Part shown: piece by piece, positions 33,032-63,704 of the stretch
How positions within the stretch are numbered: position 1 is the first letter of the stretch
Layout of the letters: each line of letters opens with the position of its first letter
Source: Antedon mediterranea
Lineage: Eukaryota > Echinodermata > Crinoidea > Comatulida > Antedonidae
DNA: 64,000 nucleotides
NCBI RefSeq assembly: GCF_964355755.1
Contig: NC_092677.1
Span: 4,035,001-4,099,000 of the forward strand
Direction of reading: 5' to 3'
Notes under the pieces: model-generated
What the model was told of the DNA's origin: nothing
Database searches by the model: none
Seen by the model: the letters and a program-made list of their open reading frames with translations, nothing else
Position numbers and translations under genes: made by a program

Positions 33032-33046
33032 GGAAATGAAGATTTA

Positions 33047-34210
33047 ATGATGGAGGAAAAGACAGAAGAGATTTGCGTAAGCTCCCCAGGTAAAGCGATC
33101 TTGTTCGGGGAGCATGCTGTGGTGTATGACAAGCCAGCATTAGCAGCAAGTTTAGATATGTGTACATTTGTACGCGCTAAGATTAGCAAAGGCAACGATG
33201 TCCATCTTAAACTCGTAGATTTTAACAAGACATTCAAATGGCCAATCAAACAAATAACAGAGACGTTGTATCAACCCTCAGGAGGTGGTGATGTGAAGAA
33301 TGTACCAGATTTGTCGGTGGAAGACATCGAGTGTTTATGGTCAAAAGTTAAATCCTCGTTTCCATCTGATTATGATAATACAGCCGTATTAGTATTTCTT
33401 TATCTATATTCATCGATAGTGTGTTCAAATGAACCTCTCCCATTGGACGTTGAAGTTGCATCGTGTCTTCCTATTGGTGCAGGTCTTGGATCGTCTGCGT
33501 CGTATACAACGTGTCTTTCTGCAACTATGCTAACCGCCGTAAAAGCAATCAAAGAATTTAGTAATACCGATCTTGACCTGGTGAACCGATGGGCGTTTTC
33601 AGCCGAACGGATCCTACACGGGAACCCATCCGGCGTTGATAATTCAGTCAGTGTGTTTGGCGGGTTGATTAAATACCAATCTGGTGTAATAACTCGCGTA
33701 AAATGTCCAACTACTTTAGAAATTATTCTTATTAACACTAAAGTTCAACGAGAAACGAAAAAATTAGTTGAGAAAGTGCGAAAACGAAACATAGAATGGC
33801 CAAAGGTTATTCAACCTGTATTGGATGGTATTGGTGCTATTATTGAATCAGTGGAGAATATCTTTCAGGATGTTTCTCGCATTAATATCGATAAATTAAA
33901 TGAACTTGTCCATATAAACCAGGGACTGTTATGTGCACTCGGCGTATCGCATCCTAAACTCAATGAAATTTGTCAGCTAGCTGCTGAATGTGGTTTTAGT
34001 GCTAAACTCACAGGTGCTGGGGGTGGAGGAGGTGCTTTTTGCTTTGTACCCACTAGCTGTTCAAAGTCAGAAGATTTTATGAGCAAGTTAGAGGGTAGGG
34101 GATTTAGTTGCTGGAAAACAAAGGTTGGAGGACCAGGTGTTTTACTTCATCAAAACATTGATGAATTTAGAAAAACTAGAAATAACATACCAGAACATTT
34201 TGCCCAGTAA
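33047..34210 (+). CDS. MVK: Mevalonate kinase, intronless
   Basis: A single uninterrupted frame encodes 387 aa (human 396 aa, multi-exon). It phosphorylates mevalonate with ATP in the isoprenoid and sterol pathway, in the cytosol or peroxisome. GHMP-kinase motif 1 is SPGKAILFGEHAVVY (residues 13-27, with K16). Motif 2 is LPIGAGLGSSASYT (from 141). NPSGVDNS carries the probable catalytic Asp198. Motif 3 is LTGAGGGGGAFCF (about 321-333). Two adjacent ATGs begin the frame after an acceptor-like AG at 33031. The complete lack of introns is odd among the other genes here and suggests an old retrocopy or intron loss. No poly-A tract or frame damage is seen, so it looks functional. Confidence 0.95.
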   Translation: MMEEKTEEICVSSPGKAILFGEHAVVYDKPALAASLDMCTFVRAKISKGNDVHLKLVDFNKTFKWPIKQITETLYQPSGGGDVKNVPDLSVEDIECLWSKVKSSFPSDYDNTAVLVFLYLYSSIVCSNEPLPLDVEVASCLPIGAGLGSSASYTTCLSATMLTAVKAIKEFSNTDLDLVNRWAFSAERILHGNPSGVDNSVSVFGGLIKYQSGVITRVKCPTTLEIILINTKVQRETKKLVEKVRKRNIEWPKVIQPVLDGIGAIIESVENIFQDVSRINIDKLNELVHINQGLLCALGVSHPKLNEICQLAAECGFSAKLTGAGGGGGAFCFVPTSCSKSEDFMSKLEGRGFSCWKTKVGGPGVLLHQNIDEFRKTRNNIPEHFAQ

Positions 34211-43600: not shown

Positions 43601-46600
43601 GGTCTTTGTTTCACCCTCTACACCTTCAGTTTCCTTAGAGCAAAATAATAAATGATCATTATCAAACTAGTTGGACAAAAAAGTGTTATATATAGAAATA
43701 GAAAGTGCTTGTTTAATGTTATATTTTGAAAGTTAAACAGAATACAATGTGTACCTTAATCGCTTCTTTCTGACCAATCACTGTCCACATATCCAAGCAA
43801 CCAGGAAGTTCAAAGGTTGTGACAACTTGTGGTCTTATAGTACGCTGAAATTTAAATGTACACAGTGTTACATACAAGAAAGTGTTATAAAACAAAGATG
43901 GTATAGTCATGTAGGGCTGATATAAAAGCATACAGCTTAAAGTTATTATAAACATTTTCTCATAACACCCACAGAAATATTAAAGTTTAGCATGAATGAT
44001 AAAAAATAACTCACCCTTAAAACAGATAGAGCTCCATTCTTACCATAGCCTGAACAAATCACCAATTCGATATCTGGGTCTGGGTTATTTTGAAACTAAG
44101 AAAACAGGGGGTATTACTATTATGAAGTATTATGAAGTATGATTATTATCTATTATTATACCTATTCAGAAAATAATTTATATATATATATAATTAATAA
44201 AAGGGAGACAGACAGATATACAATTCTTGCTAAGCATTCAATCGCTGTAACAGAATAACTGAAGAAGGTGTCCCCTTAATAGGTCCACTGAATAGGGGTT
44301 GGATGTATTTTTAAACATGTTGCTCCTTATCCTCATGGGAAAGTGTCCCCTTAATAGGGGTGTCCCCTGAATAGAGGAGGGATTCTACTGTAATACAATA
44401 AATTCTTACCTCCTCAGAAAGAAATGCTGGCTCACCCATAACCATACTTCCACATGGCCCTATATTAAGCAGACTGTCTGAAACCTAATGAATAATCATT
44501 ATCCATTACAATAATTATAAAAACCTAATCGGAATGTCATAATGATAAAAGCATGTTTGGAACCTAATGAATATCCATTACTCATTATAATAATAATAAT
44601 TATAAAAGCCTAAATGAGACGTTTTATCAACTCATCATAATAATAAAAGACTGTGTGGAATCTAATGAATATTCATAACTTATAAATATTTTATAAGCTT
44701 GATTGCAATGTAAGCAATGCTATGGTTTTACAGTAACGTATGGAGTGCTAAAAAGTAACAAACGGTAGCATACCTCAAATGTATAGCTTTTAACTTGCGT
44801 GCCAGTTTTCTGTGCTTGCTTGCCATACACTTCAAGTTCATCAGGATCTTCAAGTAGGTTCACGTCAGATGCTGAAGTGAAAAGAAAAAAAAATGTACTT
44901 ACCAAATAAGGAACAGTGAGGAGGAGGCGAGTCCCGTGTTCTCTGTTAGGAGCTCATTGTACTAAGCCTCGGCATTATGTGGTAGGGTGGCCAGTTCCCT
45001 TCCATGCCGCCTTTTTTCTCCCTAGTATTTTCAACCAGGTACTCATTTACAGCTGAGTGGACTGGGAGTTGTCGGGAATTGAACCCGGGTCTATCTGTAT
45101 GACAGTCAAGTGTCCTAACCACTCGGCTATCCAACTCCTAGGAACAGTACTTACCAAATAAGGAACAGTACTTACCAAATAAGGAACAGTACTTACCAAA
45201 TAAGGAACAGTACTTACCAAATAAGGAACAGTACTTACCAAATAAGGAACAGTACTTACCAAATAAGGAACAGTACTTACCAAATAAGGAACAGTACTTA
45301 CCAAATAAGGAACAGTACTTACCAAATAAGGAACAGTACTTACCAAATAAGGAACAGTACTTACCAAATAAGGAACAGTACTTACCAAATAAGGGACAGT
45401 ACTTACCAAATAAGGGACAGTACTTACCAAATAAGGAACAGTACTTACCAAATAAGGAACAGTACTTACCAAATAAGGAACAGTACTTACCAAATAAGGA
45501 ACAGTACTTACCAAATAAGGAACAGTACTTACCAAATAAGGAACAGTACTTACCAAATAAGGAACAGTACTTACCAAATAAGGAACAGTACTTACCAAAT
45601 AAGGAACAGTACTTACCAAATAAGGAACAGTACTTACCAAATAAGGAACAGTACTTACCAAATAAGGAACAGTACTTACCAAATAAGGAACAGTACTTAC
45701 CAAATAAGGAACAGTACTTACCAAATAAGGAACAGTACTTACCAAATAAGGAACAGTACTTACCAAATAAGGAACAGTACTTACCAAATAAGGGACATTA
45801 CTTACCAAATAAGGGACATTACTTACCAAATAAGGGACATTACTTACCAAATAAGGAACAGTACTTACCAAATAAGGAACAGTACTTACCAAATAAGGAA
45901 CAGTACTTACCAAATAAGGAACAGTACTTACCAAATAAGGGACAGTACTTACCAAATAAGGGACAGTACTTACCAAATAAGGGACAGTACTTACCAAATA
46001 AGGGACAGTACTTACCAAATAAGGGACAGTACTTACCAAATAAGGAACAGTACTTACCAAATAAGGAACAGTACTTACCAAATAAGGAACAGTACTTACC
46101 AAATAAGGAACAGTACTTACCAAATAAGGAACAGTACTTACCAAATAAGGAACAGTACTTACCAAATAAGGAACAGTACTTACCAAATAAGGAACAGTAC
46201 TTACCAAATAAGGAACAGTACTTACCAAATAAGGAACAGTACTTACCAAATAAGGAACAGTACTTACCAAATAAGGAACAGTACTTACCAAATAAAAAAC
46301 AGTACTTACCAAATAAAAAACAGTACTTACCAAATAAGGAAGAGTACTTACCAAATAAGGAACAGTACTTACCAAATAAGGAACAGTACTTACCAAATAA
46401 GGAACAGTACTTACCAAATAAGGAACAGTACTTACCAAATAAGGAACAGTACTTACCAAATAAGGAACAGTACTTACCAAATAAGGAACAGTACTTACCA
46501 AATAAGGAACAGTACTTACCAAATAAGGAACAGTACTTACCAAATAAGGAACAGTACTTACCAAATAAGGAACAGTACTTACCAAATAAGGAACAGTACT

Positions 46601-49600
46601 TACCAAATAAGGAACAGTACTTACCAAATAAGGAACAGTACTTACCAAATAAGGAACAGTACTTACCAAATAAGGAACAGTACTTACCAAATAAGGAACA
46701 GTACTTACCAAATAAGGAACAGTACTTACCAAATAAGGAACAGTACTTACCAAATAAGGAACAGTACTTACCAAATAAGGAACAGTACTTACCAAATAAG
46801 GAACAGTACTTACCAAATAAGGAACAGTACTTACCAAATAAGGAACAGTACTTACCAAATAAGGAACAGTACTTACCAAATAAGGAACAGTACTTACCAA
46901 ATAAGGAACAGTACTTACCAAATAAGGAACAGTACTTACCAAATAAGGAACAGTACTTACCAAATAAGGAACAGTACTTACCAAATAAGGAACAGTACTT
47001 ACCAAATAAGGAACAGTACTTACCAAATAAGGAACAGTACTTACCAAATAAGGAACAGTACTTACCAAATAAGGAACAGTACTTACCAAATAAGGAACAG
47101 TACTTACCAAATAAGGAACAGTACTTACCAAATAAGGAACAGTACTTACCAAATAAGGAACAGTACTTACCAAATAAGGAACAGTACTTACCAAATAAGG
47201 AACAGTACTTACCAAATAAGGAACAGTACTTACCAAATAAGGAACAGTACTTACCAAATAAGGAACAGTACTTACCAAATAAGGAACAGTACTTACCAAA
47301 TAAGGAACAGTACTTACCAAATAAGGAACAGTACTTACCAAATAAGGAACAGTACTTACCAAATAAGGAACAGTACTTACCAAATAAGGAACAGTACTTA
47401 CCAAATAAGGGACATTACTTACCAAATAAGGAACAGTACTTACCAAATAAGGAACAGTACTTACCAAATAAGGGACAGTACTTACCAAATAAGGAATAGT
47501 ACTTACCAAATAAGGGACACTACTTACCAAATAAGGGACAGTACTTACCAAATAAGGAACAGTACTTACCAAATAAGGGACAGTACTTACCAAATAAGGA
47601 ACAGTACTTACCAAATAAGGGACACTACTTACAAAATAAGGGACAGTACTTACCAATCCAGTCGCTTGCATCTTCTCCTCTCACTTTCTTAGTTGGTGGT
47701 TCTCCCTGAAAAAAAAATAAGATGGTACTTCAGAAATAAAGAAGATAAAGGCATAACAACATAAGAGAATTTTTACAAATATTTGATACTAACCTCTTTT
47801 CTTTCTTTCTTGACAGCATCTAAAAAACAACAAAACCATGTAATATAAATAATCACATATAAACATTATTATTACCACAACATACAATAAACAACTCTAA
47901 CTGACCAAAACATAATTATCTAATTACGGCCTACCTTCTGTTTCAGCTTTTTCTGTATATTTAAGAAGTAGAGAATTTCCCAGTCTGGATCCAAGAAATA
48001 AATAGCCCTCTTCCATTTTACATATCTAAAAAAGAATACGTTATTTTATTTTAGGTATTTGTTCTTACCGAGATGGAAAATTTAGCAACCAATATAGTGT
48101 GGATTATTGAATTGTTTTTAAAGGTCATTTTCAAAATTGACGAAGGTGGCTTGCTAGTCCTTTTAACCGAAGTGGGAGAGTGCATGGTCATCTTCTGCAC
48201 TAAAAACCGCAGCTGAACAAAGGGTAAAAAAAACCCCGAGCCATGGTCAAATATTAATTTAAAAAGTAGGTATAATTAGCTGAGTTAAACGATGTTACAG
48301 GATGATACTTAAATTGTTTGGAATATACAACATAAATACATATACTGGAATTTGGCCAGCTTTCAACCAGTCATTCATAATAAAATTACTAATAACGAAA
48401 ATCTACCTGGTGGTGGTCACTATTGACTGGATTTTAGACATGACTAATTTCAACTAAATTTATATACATGTTACTCACACAAGTCGTCAGTACACTAGCC
48501 GCCGCCTTGTAAAAATGAAACCCTCTAACACTCCTCATGCCATCAATCATCAAAGTTAAAACATAGCTGAAAATATTAAAATACAACTCTCCAAACAAAA
48601 TTGTTCATATTAAAAGAGTAGCTGTAGGTCTAAAAATATGGAATGTGGAGTCCTATTATTATATCTTGCATATCATCAATCAAAAACAATTTTTTTTCAC
48701 CCAAATTTCATAAGCTGTTGCTGGAACATTCCTCTCTCATTACCATTTATTTAAAAAAAATGTAATGATGAATTAAAATTTAGTTATAGATATACAGTCA
48801 ACTCTCCCAATACCGGACATCTTTGGGCTGGCAAAATATGTCAGTTTTTTTCAAAAAGTCTTGTATATAAAAAGTGTTTTAATTGTAAAAAGGAATTTTG
48901 AACCTTTTGGACTTTTTTTTTTGGACGGTTTTCTGAGAGTCCGGTATTGGGAGAGTTGACTGCATACAAAAAAGCCCTGTAGCACTACTTTTTTCATAAA
49001 AAATTGGCTTATTTTCATGTTAGTTCTATTTCACTGCAGTCAAAAAATTAGTAGAGTTACTATCAATGCCATCGCAAAGTCTTATAATAGAAATTTTAAA
49101 CATGTTTATTAAAAATATTATATATCTTACATTTCTCCTCCTTTTAGTGACAGCACTAACTTATCAAAACTAATGAATGTAATTTGGCAGCAGTCCAATG
49201 ATATCGTTACTCCACTTTGTTTTTCTAAAAATTGTAAAATATTTGAAATTTAATAAAACAAAACGATATTATTAATATTAATTTTTTAAATGATCATACA
49301 AAATAAAAAATATTTATTAATACATTACAACTATCCAAAGTGTCTCCTAAATAGGGGTTGGCCTTAGTGTTAAAATATATAATGCTTCTCATTCATGTCC
49401 TCTGAAAAGAGGGTGTCCCCAAAGAACCGGTATATAATGCTTCTCATTCATGTCCCCTGAATAGAGGGTGTCCCCAAAGAACCGGTATATAATGCTTCTG
49501 ATTCATGTCCCCTGAATAGAAGGTGTCCCCAAAGAACCGGTATATAATGCTTCTCATTCATATCCCCTGAATAGAGGGTGTCCCCAAAGAACCGGTATAT

Positions 49601-52600
49601 AATGCTTCTCATTCATGTCCCCTGAATAGAAGGTGTCCCCAAAGAACCGGTATATAATGCTTCTCATTCATATCCCCTGAATAGAGGGTGTCCCCAAAGA
49701 ACCGGTATATAATGCTTCTCATTCATGTCCCCTGAATAGAGGGTGTCCCCAAAGAACCGGTATATAATGCTTCTCATTCATGTCCCCTGAATAGAGGGTG
49801 TCCCCAAAGAACCGGTATATAATGCTTCTCATTCATGTCCCCTGAATAGAGGGTGTCCCCAAAGAACCGGTATATAATGCTTCTCATTCATGTCCCCTGA
49901 ATAGAAGGTGTCCCCAAAGAACCGGTATATAATGCTTCTCATTCATGTCCCCTGAATAGAGGGTGTCCCCAAAGAACCGGTATATAATGCTTCTCACTCA
50001 TGTCCCCTGAATAGAGGGTGTCCCCAAAGAACCGGTATATAATGCTTCTCATTCATGTCCCCTGAATAGAGGGTGTCCCCAAAGAACCGGTATATAATGC
50101 TTCTCATTCATGTCCCCTGAATAGAGGGTGTCCCCAAAGAACCGGTATATAATGCTTCTCACTCATGTCCCCTGAATAGAGGGTGTCCCCAAAGAACCGG
50201 TATATAATGCTTCTCATTCATGTCCCCTGAATAGAGGGTGTCCCCAAAGAACCGGTATATAATGCTTCTCATTCATGTCCCCTGAATAGAGGGTGTCCCC
50301 AAAGAACCGGTATATAATGCTTCTCATTCATGTCCCCTGAATAGAGGGTGTCCCCAAAGAACCGGTATATAATGCTTCTCATTCATGTCCTCTGAATAGA
50401 GGGTGTCCCCAAAGAACCGGTATATAATGCTTCTCATTCATGTCCCCTGAATAGAGGGTGTCACCAAAGAACCGGTATATAATGCTTCTCATTCATGTCC
50501 CCTGAATAGAGGGTGTCCCCAAAGAACCGGTATATAATGCTTCTCATTCATTTCCCCTGAATAGAGGGTGTCCCCAAAGAACCGGTATATAATGCTTCTC
50601 ATTCATGTCCCCTGAATAGAGGGTGTCCCCAAAGAACCGGTATATAATGCTTCTCATTCATGTCCCCTGAATAGAGGGTGTCCCCAAAGAACCGGTATAT
50701 AATGCTTCTGATTCATGTCCCCTGAATAGAAGGTGTCACCAAAGAACCGGTATATAATGCTTCTCATTCATGTCCCCTGAATAGAGGGTGTCCCCAAAGA
50801 ACCGGTATATAATGCTTCTCATTCATGTCCCCTGAATAGAGGGTGTCCCCAAAGAACCGGTATATAATGCTTCTCATTCATGTCCCCTGAATAGAGGGTG
50901 TCCCCAAAGAACCGGTATATAATGCTTCTCATTCATGTCCCCTGAATAGAGGGTGTCCCCAAAGAACCGGTATATAATGCTTCTCATTCATGTCCCCTGA
51001 ATAGAGGGTGTCCCCAAAGAACCGGTATATAATGCTTCTCATTCATGTCCCCTGAATAGAGGGTGTCCCCAAAGAACCGGTATATAATGCTTCTCATTCA
51101 TGTCCCCTGAATAGAGGGTGTCCCCAAAGAACCGGTATATAATGCTTCTCATTCATGTCCCCTGAATAGAGGGTGTCCCCAAAGAACCGGTATATAATGC
51201 TTCTCACTCATGTCCCCTGAATAGAGGGTGTCCCCAAAGAACCGGTATATAATGCTTCTCATTCATATCCCCTGAATAGAGGGTGTCCCCAAAGAACCGG
51301 TATATAATGCTTCTCATTCATGTCCCCTGAATAGAGGGTGTCCCCAAAGAACCGGTATATAATGCTTCTCATTCATATCCCCTGAATAGAGGGTGTCCCC
51401 AAAGAACCGGTATATAATGCTTCTCATTCATGTCCCCTGAATAGAGGGTGTCCCCAAAGAACCGGTATATAATGCTTCTCATTCATGTCCCCTGAATAGA
51501 GGGTGTCCCCAAAGAACCGGTATATAATGCTTCTCATTCATGTCCCCTGAATAGAGAGTGTCCCCAAAGAACCGGTATATAATGCTTCTCATTCATGTCC
51601 CCTGAATAGAGGGTGTCCCCAAAGAACCGGTATATAATGCTTCTCATTCATGTCCCCTGAATAGAGGGTGTCCCCAAAGAACCGGTATATAATGCTTCTC
51701 ATTCATATCCCCTGAATAGAGGGTGTCCCCAAAGAACCGGTATATAATGCTTCTCATTCATGTCCCCTGAATAGAGGGTGTCCCCAAAGAACCGGTATAT
51801 AATGCTTCTCATTCATGTCCCCTGAATAGAGGGTGTCCCCAACGAACCGGTATATAATGCTTCTCATTCATGTCCCCTGAATAGAGGGTGTCCCCAAAGA
51901 ACCGGTATATAATGCTTCTCATTCATGTCCCCTGAATAGAGGGTGTCCCCAAAGAACCGGTATATAATGCTTCTCATTCATGTCCCCTGAATAGAGGGTG
52001 TCCCCAAAGAACCGGTATATAATGCTTCTCATTCATGTCCCCTGAATAGAGGGTGTCCCCAAAGAACCGGTATATAATGCTTCTCATTCATGTCCCCTGA
52101 ATAGAGGGTGTCCCCAAAGAACCGGTATATAATGCTTCTCATTCATGTCCCCTGAATAGAGGGTGTCCCCAAAGAACCGGTATATAATGCTTCTCATTCA
52201 TGTCCTCTGAATAGAGGGTGTCCCCAAAGAACCGGTATATAATGCTTCTCATTCATGTCCCCTGAATAGAGGGTGTCCCCAAAGAACCGGTATATAATGC
52301 TTCTCATTCATGTCCCCTGAATAGAGGGTGTCCCCAAAGAACCGGTATATAATGCTTCTCATTCATGTCCCCTGAATAGAGGGTGTCCCCAAAGAACCGG
52401 TATATAATGCTTCTCATTCATGTCCCCTGAATAGAGGGTGTCCCCAAAGAACCGGTATATAATGCTTCTCATTCATGTCCCCTGAATAGAGGGTGTCCCC
52501 AAAGAACCGGTATATAATGCTTCTCATTCATGTCCCCTGAATAGAGGGTGTCCCCAAAGAACCGGTATATAATGCTTCTCATTCATATCCCCTGAATAGA

Positions 52601-55600
52601 GGGTGTCCCCAAAGAACCGGTATATAATGCTTCTCATTCATGTCCCCTGAATAGAGGGTGTCCCCAAAGAACCGGTATATAATGCTTCTCATTCATGTCC
52701 CCTGAATAGAGGGTGTCCCCAAAGAACCGGTATATAATGCTTCTCACTCATGTCCCCTGAATAGAGGGTGTCCCCAAAGAACCGGTATATAATGCTTCTC
52801 ATTCATATCCCCTGAATAGAGGGTGTCCCCAAAGAACCGGTATATAATGCTTCTCATTCATGTCCCCTGAATAGAGGGTGTCCCCAAAGAACCGGTATAT
52901 AATGCTTCTCATTCATGTCCCCTGAATAGAGGGTGTCCCCAAAGAACCGGTATATAATGCTTCTCACTCATGTCCCCTGAATAGAGGGTGTCCCCAAAGA
53001 ACCGGTATATAATGCTTCTCATTCATATCCCCTGAATAGAGGGTGTCCCCAAAGAACCGGTATATAATGCTTCTCATTCATATCCCCTGAATAGAGGGTG
53101 TCCCCAAAGAACCGGTATATAATGCTTCTCATTCATGTCCCCTGAATAGAGGGTGTCCCCAAAGAACCGGTATATAATGCTTCTCATTCATGTCCCCTGA
53201 ATAGAAGGTGTCCCCAAAGAACCGGTATATAATGCTTCTCATTCATGTCCCCTGAATAGAGGGTGTCCCCAAAGAACCGGTATATAATGCTTCTCACTCA
53301 TGTCCCCTGAATAGAGGGTGTCCCCAAAGAACCGGTATATAATGCTTCTCATTCATGTCCCCTGAATAGAGGGTGTCCCCAAAGAACCGGTATATAATGC
53401 TTCTCATTCATGTCCCCTGAATAGAGGGTGTCCCCAAAGAACCGGTATATAATGCTTCTCACTCATGTCCCCTGAATAGAGGGTGTCCCCAAAGAACCGG
53501 TATATAATGCTTCTCATTCATGTCCCCTGAATAGAGGGTGTCCCCAAAGAACCGGTATATAATGCTTCTCATTCATGTCCCCTGAATAGAGGGTGTCCCC
53601 AAAGAACCGGTATATAATGCTTCTCATTCATGTCCCCTGAATAGAGGGTGTCCCCAAAGAACCGGTATATAATGCTTCTCATTCATGTCCTCTGAATAGA
53701 GGGTGTCCCCAAAGAACCGGTATATAATGCTTCTCATTCATGTCCCCTGAATAGAGGGTGTCACCAAAGAACCGGTATATAATGCTTCTCATTCATGTCC
53801 CCTGAATAGAGGGTGTCCCCAAAGAACCGGTATATAATGCTTCTCATTCATTTCCCCTGAATAGAGGGTGTCCCCAAAGAACCGGTATATAATGCTTCTC
53901 ATTCATGTCCCCTGAATAGAGGGTGTCCCCAAAGAACCGGTATATAATGCTTCTCATTCATGTCCCCTGAATAGAGGGTGTCCCCAAAGAACCGGTATAT
54001 AATGCTTCTGATTCATGTCCCCTGAATAGAAGGTGTCACCAAAGAACCGGTATATAATGCTTCTCATTCATGTCCCCTGAATAGAGGGTGTCCCCAAAGA
54101 ACCGGTATATAATGCTTCTCATTCATGTCCCCTGAATAGAGGGTGTCCCCAAAGAACCGGTATATAATGCTTCTCATTCATGTCCCCTGAATAGAGGGTG
54201 TCCCCAAAGAACCGGTATATAATGCTTCTGATTCATGTCCCCTGAATAGAGGGTGTCCCCAAAGAACCGGTATATAATGCTTCTCATTCATGTCCCCTGA
54301 ATAGAGGGTGTCCCCAAAGAACCGGTATATAATGCTTCTCATTCATATCCCCTGAATAGAGGGTGTCCCCAAAGAACCGGTATATAATGCTTCTCATTCA
54401 TGTCCCCTGAATAGAGGGTGTCCCCAAAGAACCGGTATATAATGCTTCTGATTCATGTCCCCTGAATAGAAGGTGTCACCAAAGAACCGGTATATAATGC
54501 TTCTCATTCATGTCCCCTGAATAGAGGGTGTCCCCAAAGAACCGGTATATAATGCTTCTCATTCATATCCCCTGAATAGAGGGTGTCCCCAAAGAACCGG
54601 TATATAATGCTTCTCATTCATGTCCCCTGAATAGAGGGTGTCCCCAAAGAACCGGTATATAATGCTTCTCATTCATGTCCCCTGAATAGAGGGTGTCCCC
54701 AAAGAACCGGTATATAATGCTTCTCACTCATGTCCCCTGAATAGAGGGTGTCCCCAAAGAACCGGTATATAATGCTTCTCATTCATATCCCCTGAATAGA
54801 GGGTGTCCCCAAAGAACCGGTATATAATGCTTCTCATTCATGTCCCCTGAATAGAGGGTGTCCCCAAAGAACCGGTATATAATGCTTCTCATTCATATCC
54901 CCTGAATAGAGGGTGTCCCCAAAGAACCGGTATATAATGCTTCTCATTCATGTCCCCTGAATAGAGGGTGTCCCCAAAGAACCGGTATATAATGCTTCTC
55001 ATTCATGTCCCCTGAATAGAGGGTGTCCCCAAAGAACCGGTATATAATGCTTCTCATTCATGTCCCCTGAATAGAGAGTGTCCCCAAAGAACCGGTATAT
55101 AATGCTTCTCATTCATGTCCCCTGAATAGAGGGTGTCCCCAAAGAACCGGTATATAATGCTTCTCATTCATGTCCCCTGAATAGAGGGTGTCCCCAAAGA
55201 ACCGGTATATAATGCTTCTCATTCATATCCCCTGAATAGAGGGTGTCCCCAAAGAACCGGTATATAATGCTTCTCATTCATGTCCCCTGAATAGAGGGTG
55301 TCCCCAAAGAACCGGTATATAATGCTTCTCATTCATGTCCCCTGAATAGAGGGTGTCCCCAAAGAACCGGTATATAATGCTTCTCATTCATGTCCCCTGA
55401 ATAGAGGGTGTCCCCAAAGAACCGGTATATAATGCTTCTCATTCATGTCCCCTGAATAGAGGGTGTCCCCAAAGAACCGGTATATAATGCTTCTCATTCA
55501 TGTCCCCTGAATAGAGGGTGTCCCCAAAGAACCGGTATATAATGCTTCTGATTCATGTCCCCTGAATAGAGGGTGTCCCCAAAGAACCGGTATATAATGC

Positions 55601-58600
55601 TTCTCATTCATGTCCCCTGAATAGAGGGTGTCCCCAAAGAACCGGTATATAATGCTTCTCATTCATGTCCCCTGAATAGAGGGTGTCCCCAAAGAACCGG
55701 TATATAATGCTTCTCATTCATGTCCTCTGAATAGAGGGTGTCCCCAAAGAACCGGTATATAATGCTTCTCATTCATGTCCCCTGAATAGAGGGTGTCCCC
55801 AAAGAACCGGTATATAATGCTTCTCATTCATGTCCCCTGAATAGAGGGTGTCCCCAAAGAACCGGTATATAATGCTTCTCATTCATGTCCCCTGAATAGA
55901 AGGTGTCCCCAAAGAACCGGTATATAATGCTTCTCATTCATGTCCCCTGAATAGAGGGTGTCCCCAAAGAACCGGTATATAATGCTTCTCACTCATGTCC
56001 CCTGAATAGAGGGTGTCCCCAAAGAACCGGTATATAATGCTTCTCATTCATGTCCCCTGAATAGAGGGTGTCCCCAAAGAACCGGTATATAATGCTTCTC
56101 ATTCATGTCCCCTGAATAGAGGGTGTCCCCAAAGAACCGGTATATAATGCTTCTCACTCATGTCCCCTGAATAGAGGGTGTCCCCAAAGAACCGGTATAT
56201 AATGCTTCTCATTCATGTCCCCTGAATAGAGGGTGTCCCCAAAGAACCGGTATATAATGCTTCTCATTCATGTCCCCTGAATAGAGGGTGTCCCCAAAGA
56301 ACCGGTATATAATGCTTCTCATTCATGTCCCCTGAATAGAGGGTGTCCCCAAAGAACTGGTATATAATGCTTCTCATTCATGTCCTCTGAATAGAGGGTG
56401 TCCCCAAAGAACCGGTATATAATGCTTCTCATTCATGTCCCCTGAATAGAGGGTGTCACCAAAGAACCGGTATATAATGCTTCTCATTCATGTCCCCTGA
56501 ATAGAGGGTGTCCCCAAAGAACCGGTATATAATGCTTCTCATTCATTTCCCCTGAATAGAGGGTGTCCCCAAAGAACCGGTATATAATGCTTCTCATTCA
56601 TGTCCCCTGAATAGAGGGTGTCCCCAAAGAACCGGTATATAATGCTTCTCATTCATGTCCCCTGAATAGAGGGTGTCCCCAAAGAACCGGTATATAATGC
56701 TTCTGATTCATGTCCCCTGAATAGAAGGTGTCACCAAAGAACCGGTATATAATGCTTCTCATTCATGTCCCCTGAATAGAGGGTGTCCCCAAAGAACCGG
56801 TATATAATGCTTCTCATTCATGTCCCCTGAATAGAGGGTGTCCCCAAAGAACCGGTATATAATGCTTCTCATTCATGTCCCCTGAATAGAGGGTGTCCCC
56901 AAAGAACCGGTATATAATGCTTCTGATTCATGTCCCCTGAATAGAGGGTGTCCCCAAAGAACCGGTATATAATGCTTTTCATTCATGTCCCCTGAATAGA
57001 GGGTGTCCCCAAAGAACCGGTATATAATGCTTCTCATTCATGTCCCCTGAATAGAGGGTGTCACCAAAGAACCGGTATATAATGCTTCTCATTCATGTCC
57101 CCTGAATAGAGGGTGTCCCCAAAGAACCGGTATATAATGCTTCTCATTCATGTCCCCTGAATAGAGGGTGTCCCCAAAGAACCGGTATATAATGCTTCTC
57201 ATTCATGTCCTCTGAATAGAGGGTGTCCCCAAAGAACCGGTATATAATGCTTCTCATTCATGTCCCCTGAATAGAGGGTGTCACCAAAGAACCGGTATAT
57301 AATGCTTCTCATTCATGTCCCCTGAATAGAGGGTGTCCCCAAAGAACCGGTATATAATGCTTCTCATTCATTTCCCCTGAATAGAGGGTGTCCCCAAAGA
57401 ACCGGTATATAATGCTTCTCATTCATGTCCCCTGAATAGAGGGTGTCCCCAAAGAACCGGTATATAATGCTTCTCATTCATGTCCCCTGAATAGAGGGTG
57501 TCCCCAAAGAACCGGTATATAATGCTTCTGATTCATGTCCCCTGAATAGAGGGTGTCCCCAAAGAACCGGTATATAATGCTTCTGATTCATGTCCCCTGA
57601 ATAGAGGGTGTCCCCAAAGAACCGGTATATAATGCTTCTCATTCATGTCCCCTGAATAGAGGGTGTCCCCAAAGAACCGGTATATAATGCTTCTCATTCA
57701 TATCCCCTGAATAGAGGGTGTCCCCAAAGAACCGGTATATAATGCTTCTCATTCATGTCCCCTGAATAGAGGGTGTCCCCAAAGAACCGGTATATAATGC
57801 TTCTGATTCATGTCCCCTGAATAGAAGGTGTCACCAAAGAACCGGTATATAATGCTTCTCATTCATGTCCCCTGAATAGAGGGTGTCCCCAAAGAACCGG
57901 TATATAATGCTTCTCATTCATATCCCCTGAATAGAGGGTGTCCCCAAAGAACCGGTATATAATGCTTCTCATTCATGTCCCCTGAATAGAGGGTGTCCCC
58001 AAAGAACCGGTATATAATGCTTCTCATTCATGTCCCCTGAATAGAGGGTGTCCCCAAAGAACCGGTATATAATGCTTCTCACTCATGTCCCCTGAATAGA
58101 GGGTGTCCCCAAAGAACCGGTATATAATGCTTCTCATTCATATCCCCTGAATAGAGGGTGTCCCCAAAGAACCGGTATATAATGCTTCTCATTCATGTCC
58201 CCTGAATAGAGGGTGTCCCCAAAGAACCGGTATATAATGCTTCTCATTCATATCCCCTGAATAGAGGGTGTCCCCAAAGAACCGGTATATAATGCTTCTC
58301 ATTCATGTCCACTGAATAGAGGGTGTCCCCAAAGAACCGGTATATAATGCTTCTCATTCATGTCCCCTGAATAGAGGGTGTCCCCAAAGAACCGGTATAT
58401 AATGCTTCTCATTCATGTCCCCTGAATAGAGAGTGTCCCCAAAGAACCGGTATATAATGCTTCTCATTCATGTCCCCTGAATAGAGGGTGTCCCCAAAGA
58501 ACCGGTATATAATGCTTCTCATTCATGTCCCCTGAATAGAGGGTGTCCCCAAAGAACCGGTATATAATGCTTCTCATTCATATCCCCTGAATAGAGGGTG

Positions 58601-61600
58601 TCCCCAAAGAACCGGTATATAATGCTTCTCATTCATGTCCCCTGAATAGAGGGTGTCCCCAAAGAACCGGTATATAATGCTTCTCATTCATGTCCCCTGA
58701 ATAGAGGGTGTCCCCAAAGAACCGGTATATAATGCTTCTCATTCATGTCCCCTGAATAGAGGGTGTCCCCAAAGAACCGGTATATAATGCTTCTCATTCA
58801 TGTCCCCTGAATAGAGGGTGTCCCCAAAGAACCGGTATATAATGCTTCTCATTCATGTCCCCTGAATAGAGGGTGTCCCCAAAGAACCGGTATATAATGC
58901 TTCTGATTCATGTCCCCTGAATAGAGGGTGTCCCCAAAGAACCGGTATATAATGCTTCTCATTCATGTCCCCTGAATAGAGGGTGTCCCCAAAGAACCGG
59001 TATATAATGCTTCTCATTCATGTCCCCTGAATAGAGGGTGTCCCCAAAGAACCGGTATATAATGCTTCTCATTCATGTCCTCTGAATAGAGGGTGTCCCC
59101 AAAGAACCGGTATATAATGCTTCTCATTCATGTCCCCTGAATAGAGGGTGTCCCCAAAGAACCGGTATATAATGCTTCTCATTCATGTCCCCTGAATAGA
59201 GGGTGTCCCCAAAGAACCGGTATATAATGCTTCTCATTCATGTCCCCTGAATAGAAGGTGTCCCCAAAGAACCGGTATATAATGCTTCTCATTCATGTCC
59301 CCTGAATAGAGGGTGTCCCCAAAGAACCGGTATATAATGCTTCTCACTCATGTCCCCTGAATAGAGGGTGTCCCCAAAGAACCGGTATATAATGCTTCTC
59401 ATTCATGTCCCCTGAATAGAGGGTGTCCCCAAAGAACCGGTATATAATGCTTCTCATTCATGTCCCCTGAATAGAGGGTGTCCCCAAAGAACCGGTATAT
59501 AATGCTTCTCACTCATGTCCCCTGAATAGAGGGTGTCCCCAAAGAACCGGTATATAATGCTTCTCATTCATGTCCCCTGAATAGAGGGTGTCCCCAAAGA
59601 ACCGGTATATAATGCTTCTCATTCATGTCCCCTGAATAGAGGGTGTCCCCAAAGAACCGGTATATAATGCTTCTCATTCATGTCCCCTGAATAGAGGGTG
59701 TCCCCAAAGAACCGGTATATAATGCTTCTCATTCATGTCCTCTGAATAGAGGGTGTCCCCAAAGAACCGGTATATAATGCTTCTCATTCATGTCCCCTGA
59801 ATAGAGGGTGTCACCAAAGAACCGGTATATAATGCTTCTCATTCATGTCCCCTGAATAGAGGGTGTCCCCAAAGAACCGGTATATAATGCTTCTCATTCA
59901 TTTCCCCTGAATAGAGGGTGTCCCCAAAGAACCGGTATATAATGCTTCTCATTCATGTCCCCTGAATAGAGGGTGTCCCCAAAGAACCGGTATATAATGC
60001 TTCTCATTCATGTCCCCTGAATAGAGGGTGTCCCCAAAGAACCGGTATATAATGCTTCTGATTCATGTCCCCTGAATAGAAGGTGTCACCAAAGAACCGG
60101 TATATAATGCTTCTCATTCATGTCCCCTGAATAGAGGGTGTCCCCAAAGAACCGGTATATAATGCTTCTCATTCATGTCCCCTGAATAGAGGGTGTCCCC
60201 AAAGAACCGGTATATAATGCTTCTCATTCATGTCCCCTGAATAGAGGGTGTCCCCAAAGAACTGGTATATAATGCTTCTGATTCATGTCCCCTGAATAGA
60301 GGGTGTCCCCAAAGAACCGGTATATAATGCTTCTCATTCATGTCCCCTGAATAGAGGGTGTCCCCAAAGAACCGGTATATAATGCTTCTCATTCATGTCC
60401 CCTGAATAGAGGGTGTCCCCAAAGAACCGGTATATAATGCTTCTCATTCATGTCCCCTGAATAGAGGGTGTCCCCAAAGAACCGGTATATAATGCTTCTC
60501 ATTCATGTCCCCTGAATAGAGGGTGTCCCCAAAGAACCGGTATATAATGCTTCTGATTCATGTCCCCTGAATAGAGGGTGTCCCCAAAGAACCGGTATAT
60601 AATGCTTCTCATTCATGTCCCCTGAATAGAGGGTGTCCCCAAAGAACCGGTATATAATGCTTCTCATTCATGTCCTCTGAATAGAGGGTGTCCCCAAAGA
60701 ACCGGTATATAATGCTTCTCATTCATGTCCCCTGAATAGAGGGTGTCCCCAAAGAACCGGTATATAATGCTTCTCATTCATATCCCCTGAATAGAGGGTG
60801 TCCCCAAAGAACCGGTATATAATGCTTCTCATTCATGTCCCCTGAATAGAGGGTGTCCCCAAAGAACCGGTATATAATGCTTCTCATTCATGTCCCCTGA
60901 ATAGAGGGTGTCCCCAAAGAACCGGTATATAATGCTTCTCATTCATATCCCCTGAATAGAGGGTGTCCCCAAAGAACCGGTATATAATGCTTCTCATTCA
61001 TGTCCCCTGAATAGAGGGTGTCCCCAAAGAACCGGTATATAATGCTTCTCATTCATATCCCCTGAATAGAGGGTGTCCCCAAAGAACCGGTATATAATGC
61101 TTCTCATTCATGTCCCCTGAATAGAGGGTGTCCCCAAAGAACCGGTATATAATGCTTCTCATTCATGTCCCCTGAATAGAGGGTGTCCCCAAAGAACCGG
61201 TATATAATGCTTCTCACTCATGTCCCCTGAATAGAGGGTGTCCCCAAAGAACCGGTATATAATGCTTCTCATTCATATCCCCTGAATAGAGGGTGTCCCC
61301 AAAGAACCGGTATATAATGCTTCTCATTCATGTCCCCTGAATAGAGGGTGTCCCCAAAGAACCGGTATATAATGCTTCTCATTCATATCCCCTGCCCTGA
61401 ATAGAGGGTGTCCCCAAAGAACCGGTATATAATGCTTCTCATTCATGTCCCCTGAATAGAGGGTGTCCCCAAAGAACCGGTATATAATGCTTCTCATTCA
61501 TGTCCCCTGAATAGAGGGTGTCCCCAAAGAACCGGTATATAATGCTTCTCATTCATGTCCCCTGAATAGAGAGTGTCCCCAAAGAACCGGTATATAATGC

Positions 61601-63704
61601 TTCTCATTCATGTCCCCTGAATAGAGGGTGTCCCCAAAGAACCGGTATATAATGCTTCTCATTCATGTCCCCTGAATAGAGGGTGTCCCCAAAGAACCGG
61701 TATATAATGCTTCTCATTCATATCCCCTGAATAGAGGGTGTCCCCAAAGAACCGGTATATAATGCTTCTCATTCATGTCCCCTGAATAGAGGGTGTCCCC
61801 AAAGAACCGGTATATAATGCTTCTCATTCATGTCCCCTGAATAGAGGGTGTCCCCAAAGAACCGGTATATAATGCTTCTCATTCATGTCCCCTGAATAGA
61901 GGGTGTCCCCAAAGAACCGGTATATAATGCTTCTCATTCATGTCCCCTGAATAGAGGGTGTCCCCAAAGAACCGGTATATAATGCTTCTCATTCATGTCC
62001 CCTGAATAGAGGGTGTCCCCAAAGAACCGGTATATAATGCTTCTCATTCATGTCCCCTGAATAGAGGGTGTCCCCAAAGAACCGGTATATAATGCTTCTC
62101 ATTCATGTCCCCTGAATAGAGGGTGTCCCCAAAGAACCGGTATATAATGCTTCTCATTCATGTCCCCTGAATAGAGAGTGTCCCCAAAGAACCGGTATAT
62201 AATGCTTCTCATTCATGTCCCCTGAATAGAGGGTGTCCCCAAAGAACCGGTATATAATGCTTCTCATTCATATCCCCTGAATAGAGGGTGTCCCCAAAGA
62301 ACCGGTATATAATGCTTCTCATTCATGTCCCCTGAATAGAGGGTGTCCCCAAAGAACCGGTATATAATGCTTCTCATTCATGTCCCCTGAATAGAGGGTG
62401 TCCCCAAAGAACCGGTATATAATGCTTCTCATTCATGTCCCCTGAATAGAGGGTGTCCCCAAAGAACCGGTATATAATGCTTCTCATTCATGTCCCCTGA
62501 ATAGAGGGTGTCCCCAAAGAACCGGTATATAATGCTTCTCATTCATGTCCCCTGAATAGAGGGTGTCCCCAAAGAACCGGTATATAATGCTTCTCATTCA
62601 TGTCCCCTGAATAGAGGGTGTCCCCAAAGAACCGGTATATAATGCTTCTCATTCATGTCCCCTGAATAGAGGGTGTCCCCAAAGAACCAGTATATAATGC
62701 TTCTCATTCATGTCCCCTGAATAGAGGGTGTCCCCAAATAACCGGTATATAATGCTTCTCATTCATATCCCCTGAATAGAGGGTGTCCCCAAAGAACCGG
62801 TATATAATGCTTCTCATTCATGTCCCCTGAATAGAGGGTGTCCCCAAAGAACCGGTATATAATGCTTCTCATTCATGTCCCCTGAATAGAGGGTGTCCCC
62901 AAAGAACCGGTATATAATGCTTCTCATTCATGTCCCCTGAATAGAGGGTGTCCCCAAAGAACCGGTATATAATGCTTCTGATTCATGTCCCCTGAATAGA
63001 GGGTGTCCCCAAAGAACCGGTATATAATGCTTCTCATTCATGTCCCCTGAATAGAGGGTGTCCCCAAAGAACCGGTATATAATGCTTCTCATTCATGTCC
63101 CCTGAATAGAGGGTGTCCCCAAAGAACCGGTATATAATGCTTCTCATTCATGTCCCCTGAATAGAGGGTGTCCCCAAAGAACCGGTATATAATGCTTCTC
63201 ATTCATATCCCCTGAATAGAGGGTGTCCCCAAAGAACCGGTATATAATGCTTCTCATTCATGTCCCCTGAATAGAGGGTGTCCCCAAAGAACCGGTATAT
63301 AATGCTTCTCATTCATGTCCCCTGAATAGAGGGTGTCCCCAAAGAACCGGTATATAATGCTTCTCATTCATGTCCCCTGAATAGAGGGTGTCCCCAAAGA
63401 ACCGGTATATAATGCTTCTCATTCATGTCCCCTGAATAGAGGGTGTCCCCAAAGAACCGGTATATAATGCTTCTCATTCATGTCCCCTGAATAGAGGGTG
63501 TCCCCAAAGAACCGGTTTAACTGTACAATACAAAACATTTAAATATATTTTCGTGAAAATGGTATTATGTTTGTTATATTAATTGCTACTTACTCAGTGG
63601 AAATGCTGTTGATTTTTCCGTTATGGAGTTTAAAGAAACACCAAATGGAGGCACACTCTGGTTAAGATACAAAAGTGAGTTTACAGCAAATATTAAGACT
63701 CCAC
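34690..63704 (-). CDS. CPSF1: Cleavage and polyadenylation specificity factor subunit 1 (CPSF160), C-terminal 1152 residues
   Basis: Thirty-four exons join in phase: 63594-63704, 49131-49224, 48479-48566, 47935-48025, 47794-47819, 47654-47705, 44774-44871, 44410-44484, 44015-44095, 43755-43844, 43541-43633, 43122-43263, 42818-42993, 42260-42390, 41781-41873, 41377-41455, 41092-41186, 40336-40432, 40003-40092, 39580-39729, 39223-39375, 38671-38787, 38481-38571, 38309-38393, 37979-38120, 37776-37844, 37501-37584, 37123-37299, 36682-36748, 36367-36414, 35829-35987, 35468-35597, 34909-35047 and 34690-34737. About 280 N-terminal residues lie outside the window. Matches to human CPSF1 include [68 protein letters not shown] and [16 protein letters not shown]160 is the beta-propeller scaffold of the nuclear 3'-end processing complex that holds CPSF30 and WDR33 on AAUAAA. 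Two introns are filled by tandem arrays. It is convergent with MVK. Confidence 0.96.
35205..35370 (-). repeat. Dispersed repeat family D, copy 2 (CPSF1 intron)
   Basis: This is the inverted counterpart of 12890-13045, sharing AACAGTCCTTTGATCTT, GTGTCTGTTAAGGGGCGTG and CTTTGATCTCCGGA when read on the minus strand. It lies between CPSF1 exons 34909-35047 and 35468-35597. Confidence 0.65.
36212..36351. mobile_element. TTAA-type MITE family, copy 3
   Basis: The copy is bounded by TTAA on both sides, with ends TTAAGCCCTGTCTAAACTAT and GTGTGGACAGAGCTTAA. It lies 15 bp from a CPSF1 exon (36367-36414). Confidence 0.8.
36538..36643. mobile_element. TTAA-type MITE family, copy 4
   Basis: Ends TAAGCTCTGTCTACACCA and TTGATAGTGTAGACAGAGCTTA are inverted around the shared ATATGGACATGATG core. 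The copy is internally deleted, about 106 bp, in the next CPSF1 intron. Partial copies also lie at 37330-37382 and 38628-38666, the latter abutting the donor of exon 38671-38787. Confidence 0.75.
36955..37101 (-). mobile_element. tRNA-derived SINE fragment, family 1
   Basis: On the minus strand a tRNA-like head shows box A (TAGCTTGGTGGTTATCG) and box B (GGTTCAATCCT), followed by a non-tRNA body (CTCCCCTCCCTAAGCC). The head abuts CPSF1 exon 37123-37299. Confidence 0.7.
38180..38300. mobile_element. DNA-transposon terminal remnant related to the 55-bp satellite
   Basis: ACACCTCTATTAGGGGGACAC and, in the inverse sense, CCCTATTCAGAGGACACTTT form loose inverted ends around an AT-rich centre. The words match the satellite unit at 49375-63515 and the element at 44255-44395. 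Confidence 0.6.
38821..39125 (+). mobile_element. tRNA-derived SINE, family 2
   Basis: The head at 38821-38898 has a perfect 7-bp acceptor stem (GAGTGAG with CTCACTC), box A (TGGCCGAGCGGTTTAGA) and box B (GGTTCGAGGCT). A body with GGTCCAGTGTACAC and GTGCACTTTAAAGAACC follows, a pattern common in metazoan SINEs. The tail is rich in AAACAAAC. It lies in a CPSF1 intron on the strand opposite to the gene. Confidence 0.8.
40194..40327. mobile_element. TTAA-type MITE family, copy 5
   Basis: Ends AAAGCTCTGTCTACACTATC and GATAGTGTAGACCGAGCTTA are inverted, with the shared core. The copy lies 8 bp from the end of CPSF1 exon 40336-40432, inside the donor-side intron. Confidence 0.8.
40557..41068. mobile_element. 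512-bp pogo/Tigger-like MITE with TA flanks
   Basis: CAGTAGAACCTGTGTTTTAC at the left is inverted as AAAATGGAGGTTCTACTG at the right, with TA on both sides. Subterminal TTTTACGTAC motifs are repeated at both ends. GATGACGTCATCA, holding a perfect TGACGTCA, lies near 40626. It has no transposase and shares end design and GGCTAGCTACGAT with the element at 25530-28372. Confidence 0.8.
42582..42697. mobile_element. TTAA-type MITE family, copy 6 (left end truncated)
   Basis: The right end TTTGATAGTGTAGACAGAGC is intact. The left end is replaced by unrelated sequence, but GTCCATATATGGGCACATCA and the core words are present. Confidence 0.75.
44255..44395. mobile_element. DNA-transposon end with GTGTCCCC motifs
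   Basis: AAGGTGTCCCCTTAATAGG, GTGTCCCCTTAATAGGGG and TGTCCCCTGAATAGAGG precede a terminal GGATTCTACTGTAATA, typical of a CAGTAGAATCC-type inverted end. The TGTCCCCTGAATAGAGG word is the core of the 55-bp satellite further along the gene. Confidence 0.65.
44895..47653 (-). repeat. 21-bp tandem array of 5' splice-site units filling a CPSF1 intron
   Basis: About 120 units read on the transcribed strand as TTGGTAAGTACTGTTCCTTA-type 21-mers. Each holds G|GTAAGTA, eight contiguous bases complementary to the 5' end of U1 snRNA. The first unit starts exactly at the donor of exon 47654-47705. The last lies 24 bp from the acceptor of exon 44774-44871. Variant units (GTCCC, AATGTCCC, AGTGTCCC) cluster at the edges, whereas about 50 units between 46345 and 47400 are identical, indicating recent homogenisation. 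The array is split by a SINE at 44918-45139. A long open frame across it is a by-product of the 21-nt period. Confidence 0.97.
44918..45139 (-). mobile_element. tRNA-derived SINE, family 3, inserted in the 21-bp array
   Basis: The head on the minus strand starts GGAGTTGGATAGCCGAGTGG, has box B GGTTCAATTCC and a perfect 7-bp acceptor stem (GGAGTTG with CAACTCC). The body includes CAGCTGTAAATGAGTACC and CTGGCCACCCTACCACATAA. A 9-bp target-site duplication, AGGAACAGT, lies at 44909-44917 and 45140-45148. Both copies are array sequence, so the SINE landed after the array existed. Confidence 0.88.
48795..48962. mobile_element. 168-bp MITE with CAGTCAACTCTCCCAATACC ends
   Basis: The left CAGTCAACTCTCCCAATACC and the right GGTATTGGGAGAGTTGACTG are perfect inverse copies of at least 22 bp when GGAC is included. 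The interior is AT-rich with no ORF. It has the style of a pogo/Tigger non-autonomous element and lies in a CPSF1 intron. Confidence 0.85.
49375..63515. repeat. 55-bp satellite, about 257 copies, inside a CPSF1 intron
   Basis: The unit is AATGCTTCTCATTCATGTCC plus CCTGAATAGAGGGTGTCCCC plus AAAGAACCGGTATAT. The array spans about 14.1 kb with almost no length variation; one 5-bp insertion is visible near 61390. Point variants (ACTCATG, ATATCC, TCCTCTG, GTCACC, TTTCCCC, CTGATTC, AGAAGG) recur in the same order in separate blocks, so large multi-unit blocks have been duplicated. The left edge grades into an older GTGTCTCCTAAATAGGGG segment at about 49335. Period 55 is not a multiple of 3, so no long frame is open. 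Confidence 0.98.

Follow-up and report, generated by a model that had tools for sequence, protein, structure and literature searches.

An intron of CPSF1 composed largely of tandem copies of its own 5' splice site in the crinoid Antedon mediterranea: a probable junction-spanning minisatellite

One intron of the CPSF1 gene of Antedon mediterranea is made almost wholly of a tandem repeat that reproduces the intron's 5' splice site about 120 times. The locus, which lies in a 64,000-nucleotide stretch of DNA analysed here as a whole (the window), raises the question of whether the repeated donors serve the expression of the gene or are the by-product of a repeat that has grown at an exon-intron junction. 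The intron is striking but has precedent, being a very large case of the mirage-type repeat known from amphioxus and not a new kind of intron.

The array intron occupies positions 47653-44872 on the minus strand, as do all features of the intron and its two exons given below. It is 2,782 bp long, and 91% of it is a 21-bp array. Tandem Repeats Finder reported the array at 45140-47656 (period 21, 119.9 copies, 98% match), and a hand count along the minus strand gave 119 complete units from 47653 and one unit split by a SINE, the complete units and the leading 15-bp fragment of the 120th together covering 45140-47653. The copy number of about 120 given in the first-pass annotation is thus reproduced by both counts. 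The consensus unit is GTAAGTACTGTTCCTTATTTG, which is carried without change by 98 of the 119 complete units, and the intron contains 121 GTAAGTA and 119 GGTAAGTA motifs. Unit 1 (47633-47653) contains the natural donor, TTG/GTAAGTAC (the slash marks the splice point), as had been claimed, and the G preceding its GTAAGTA is the last base of the exon. Unit 2 (47612-47632) reads TTTT/GTAAGTAG; the description of every later unit as G/GTAAGTA holds for all units but this one, in which T precedes GTAAGTA. GGTAAGT occurs only about 38,000 times in the 354-Mb genome, which excludes a chance origin of the array.

The 120th unit (45154-45140) is broken after 15 bp by a young tRNA-like SINE of 222 bp (45139-44918), the tRNA origin of which was judged by eye; neither ARAGORN nor Rfam made a call at these positions. 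The array restarts at 44917-44895 (ACTGTTCCTTATTTGGTAAGTAC) with a second copy of ACTGTTCCT, the remainder of the unit and a final GTAAGTAC. The two broken array ends overlap by ACTGTTCCT, a 9-bp target-site duplication with its first copy at 45140-45148, and the SINE postdates the array. Other genomic copies of the element have flanking duplications of their own and are mostly 97-99% identical, which indicates that the SINE is young. The array ends 23 nt short of the next exon, and this remainder (44872-44894) consists of a pyrimidine tract and the acceptor ATTTTTTTTTCTTTTCACTTCAG. A SINE and 24 bp had previously been placed between the array and the acceptor; the SINE is present, but it lies inside the last unit, and the gap is 23 nt. 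The branch point may be a CTTAT motif that lies within the last unit, some 36 nt from the acceptor. A structured or known RNA was ruled out, as Rfam gave no match in the window.

A second array, 14.1 kb long with 257 copies of a 55-bp unit, is present in the same gene at 49376-63516 and fills the CPSF1 intron 63593-49225, so that two introns of the gene are almost wholly tandem repeats. The 55-bp unit does not contain GTAAGT. The GC content of the window excluding both large arrays is 32.5%. A tektin exon of the genome matches the chain from 8SNB, the doublet of sea urchin sperm (PMC13066092), at 239 bits, against 147 bits for the best chain of any other entry; this one exon points to an echinoderm, and amphioxus was rejected as the host on the tektin match and on the low GC content (amphioxus is near 41%). 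A second tektin exon came closest to mammalian tektin-3, a paralogue for which sea urchin seems to have no solved chain. An intronless single open frame of 392 codons (33032-34210), which we take to resemble mevalonate kinase, lies a short way past the 3' end of CPSF1.

The seven exons around the array join in one open frame that corresponds to residues 277-464 of human CPSF1 (phmmer, E 3.2e-70), with the array intron in the poorly conserved linker preceding 'DELEVYG'. The exon upstream of the array (47654-47705; 52 nt, 17 residues) ends in GGATTG (GACTGGATTG) and was identified by the spliced frame and a PDB match to human CPSF1, and the downstream exon (44774-44871) has 98 nt. Both exons are those named in the first-pass annotation, and its predictions for the alternative donors are likewise borne out. 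Joining the first donor to the acceptor continues the frame and gives the normal CPSF1 protein. Splicing from donor 2 would add seven codons (GKYCPLF), while donors 3 and later would read an in-frame TAG in unit 2 and then further stops. Only the first donor preserves the normal protein, and it is the reading frame that points to use of this donor in CPSF1.

At least 42 U1 genes are present in the genome in one tandem cluster (C5:15664856-15752909), with a spacing of mostly about 1.86 kb. The 5' end of these genes is ATACTTACCTG, to which the GTAAGTA sites are complementary. Each G/GTAAGTA unit forms eight contiguous pairs with U1, as many as the real donor, and this pairing is kept at 120 of the 121 sites of the intron. 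Local sequence therefore does not set unit 1 apart from the units that follow it.

Minisatellites spanning exon-intron junctions, known as mirages, have been described in amphioxus in Adh3, the globins BflGb6 and BflGb9, TnC and PGBD5, and are reported to leave splicing undisturbed. In TnC and PGBD5 there are several tandem repeats, the first of which lies directly against the 5' splice site (PMC3902484). The CPSF1 array likewise begins at the donor, with similarity extending three bases into the exon, and repeats the splice signals through the intron. Its 21-bp unit falls within the 10-72 bp range given for the Adh3 mirage. Unlike the amphioxus cases, it is found in an echinoderm, has a unit with at most three exon bases and is known here from sequence; its roughly 120 units far exceed the copies described in the globin and PGBD5 papers.

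Intron 7 of human F7 contains several 37-bp repeats, with the donor in the first of them, and experiments are reported to have shown that splicing normally uses this first one only. The CPSF1 donor also lies in the first repeat and is followed by repeats with equal donors. The repeats of F7 intron 7 are few, whereas CPSF1 has about 120 units of 21 bp, and use of the most upstream donor, experimental in F7, is proposed here from the frame. The view that no such intron had been described is contradicted by these amphioxus and human examples. No paper on echinoderm mirages came up in a literature search, which is weak evidence given its partial coverage. Tandem splice sites within one gene are also known from the dual-specific array of polyubiquitin UBC, where AG/GT between the coding repeats acts both as a donor and as an acceptor. 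The units in CPSF1 are intronic and read TTTG/GT or TTTT/GT with no AG directly before GT, and recursive or dual-specific splicing is ruled out.

Arrays of this kind recur at other exon-intron junctions of the genome. Arrays were searched for as three donor motifs in a row, and the flanks of 19 GGTAAGT arrays outside the window were inspected. For three of the 19, the flanking exons, once joined, show homology that places the start of the array exactly at a real donor: those of DHX8 (period 37 bp), TDP2 (31 bp) and EIF3L (29 bp). Of the exon end, 32 bases are copied in DHX8, 28 in TDP2 and three in EIF3L, where there are also composite units that finish with the exon end, CCTTAACTTG. With three copied exon bases, as against those of DHX8 and TDP2, CPSF1 stands at the margin of the mirage class. 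Most of the arrays read do not lie at donors; the remaining ones are found within an intron but not at its donor, on the antisense strand of genes, beside what resembles the end of a retroelement, in DNA of satellite-like character or where no exon is recognisable.

For the GTGAGT motif, two further loci probably have junction arrays. At C3:18139966-18140347, a 17-bp array of 23 copies directly follows a coiled-coil-like exon, for which no family match was obtained, and repeats its last 11 bases. A 34-bp junction-like array occurs after a short exon-like stretch in at least five places at 20.09-21.65 Mb of C3, two of which had their flanks read, and these loci look like a duplicated gene family that has taken its array along. 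Other donor-motif arrays include one with a 31-bp unit at C1:40902567-40903658, which carries the perfect donor CAG/GTAAGTAT and lies antisense to a gene having fibronectin-like exons. A dense composite 29-bp array from C3:1667862 onward, upstream of which no exon could be recognised, contains more than 300 GGTAAGT, a higher number than in CPSF1. A 32-bp GGTAAGTA array (C3:18962617-18963393) begins immediately past what looks like the terminal part of a retroelement reverse transcriptase.

Selection on the donors was assessed from the variants of the CPSF1 array and from motif counts. Seven distinct single-base variants are present in the array, none of them in the seven donor positions (expected 2.3, p ~0.06). 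Conservation of the repeated donor positions is not significant in CPSF1, and the other arrays give no consistent pattern. Selection on the donor motif was accordingly rejected, variants not being significantly depleted at donor positions, and there is no firm sign of it in the downstream CPSF1 donors. Genome-wide, there are 37,873 GGTAAGT against 51,278 of the reversed control (ratio 0.74); within arrays the counts are 2,310 and 3,182 (ratio 0.73), a crude value in that big arrays dominate and the patterns overlap. Narrower patterns deviate in opposite directions, AGGTGAGT being over-represented in arrays (289 vs 82), with most of the listed matches coming from the repeated 34-bp family on C3, and MAGGTAAGT under-represented (123 vs 1,393). 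A genome-wide preference of arrays for donor motifs was rejected on the agreement of 0.73 with the background of 0.74 and on these opposite deviations.

These results bear on the functions that have been proposed for the array. It might be a copy-number-dependent splicing element, in which many U1-bound donors strengthen the definition of the 52-nt exon, or in which leakage to later donors into nonsense-mediated decay tunes the level of CPSF1. The retention of eight contiguous U1 pairs at nearly all sites and the stop in unit 2, which makes donors 3 and later prone to decay, are in keeping with such an element, and U1 binding downstream of a donor can boost exon definition, as in PAH exon 11 (PMC5933811). 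The lack of significant conservation at donor positions speaks against it, as do similar arrays in unrelated genes with the frame-breaking periods of 37, 31 and 29 bp, and no link was found between the array and the control of CPSF1. We consider this reading unlikely, and the autoregulatory switch with selected donors suggested in the first-pass annotation finds no support in the conservation of the repeated donors or in consistent over-representation of the motif in arrays. Were the reading as a splicing element true, echinoderms would have in the arrays at other junctions a whole class of splicing regulators able to expand. The length of the array could instead be an assembly artefact, through collapse or false expansion. 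With 98 of 119 units identical, the exact copy number is uncheckable from the sequence, but variant units are clustered, the contigs are of chromosome scale and similar arrays occur elsewhere, which limits the uncertainty to copy number and makes an artefact quite improbable.

The two other proposals concern U1 itself. U1 sites can suppress polyadenylation signals close by, and bound U1 might mask premature polyadenylation of the transcript. The 15 AATAAA in the downstream part of CPSF1 leave room for such an effect at short range, but the array intron contains neither AATAAA nor ATTAAA and the 14-kb intron of the gene has no GGTAAGT, so that masking of cryptic polyadenylation is left unsupported and appears very improbable. 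That the array acts as a U1 snRNP sink is scarcely credible: many U1 sites are indeed gathered within one transcript, but some 120 sites compare with 37,873 genomic GGTAAGT and no fewer than 42 U1 genes, and the earlier suggestion of a sink is not sustained.

The CPSF1 array is most probably a mirage-type, junction-spanning minisatellite that expanded neutrally and is tolerated since the most upstream donor wins. This reading is drawn from the start of the array at a donor of CPSF1, itself an intact gene, and from the equivalent arrays in DHX8, TDP2 and EIF3L, which begin precisely at donors and copy exon ends, together with the two more probable loci. It is also drawn from the location of most arrays away from donors, with neither consistent motif enrichment nor significant conservation of donor positions, and from the reading frame, in which the first donor alone gives the normal protein and donors 3 and later meet a stop. 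The published mirages are reported to leave splicing intact, and F7 to use only the most upstream repeated donor. Three observations stand against neutral expansion: the donor positions of the array are free of variants at the p value given above, it has copied no more than three bases of the exon, against 32 in DHX8 and 28 in TDP2, and its 21-bp unit preserves the frame, unlike those of the other donor arrays.

Under neutral expansion, slippage or unequal exchange would have made a tandem duplication of the opening 21 bp of the intron, together with no more than three bases (TTG) from the exon end, and the same processes may have enlarged the array to about 120 units, filling the intron. The young SINE would have inserted into the last unit after this growth. 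Splicing would pick the most upstream donor, beside the exon, though every unit is a good U1 site, and the remaining units would be inert intron, their copy number drifting.

The CPSF1 array provides a natural test of donor choice, with about 120 competing donors that have the same U1 match. Local sequence cannot explain which of them is used, so position must. Junction-spanning minisatellites are hereby extended from amphioxus and one human gene to an echinoderm, in which the set comprises CPSF1, three more confirmed donors and probably two further loci.
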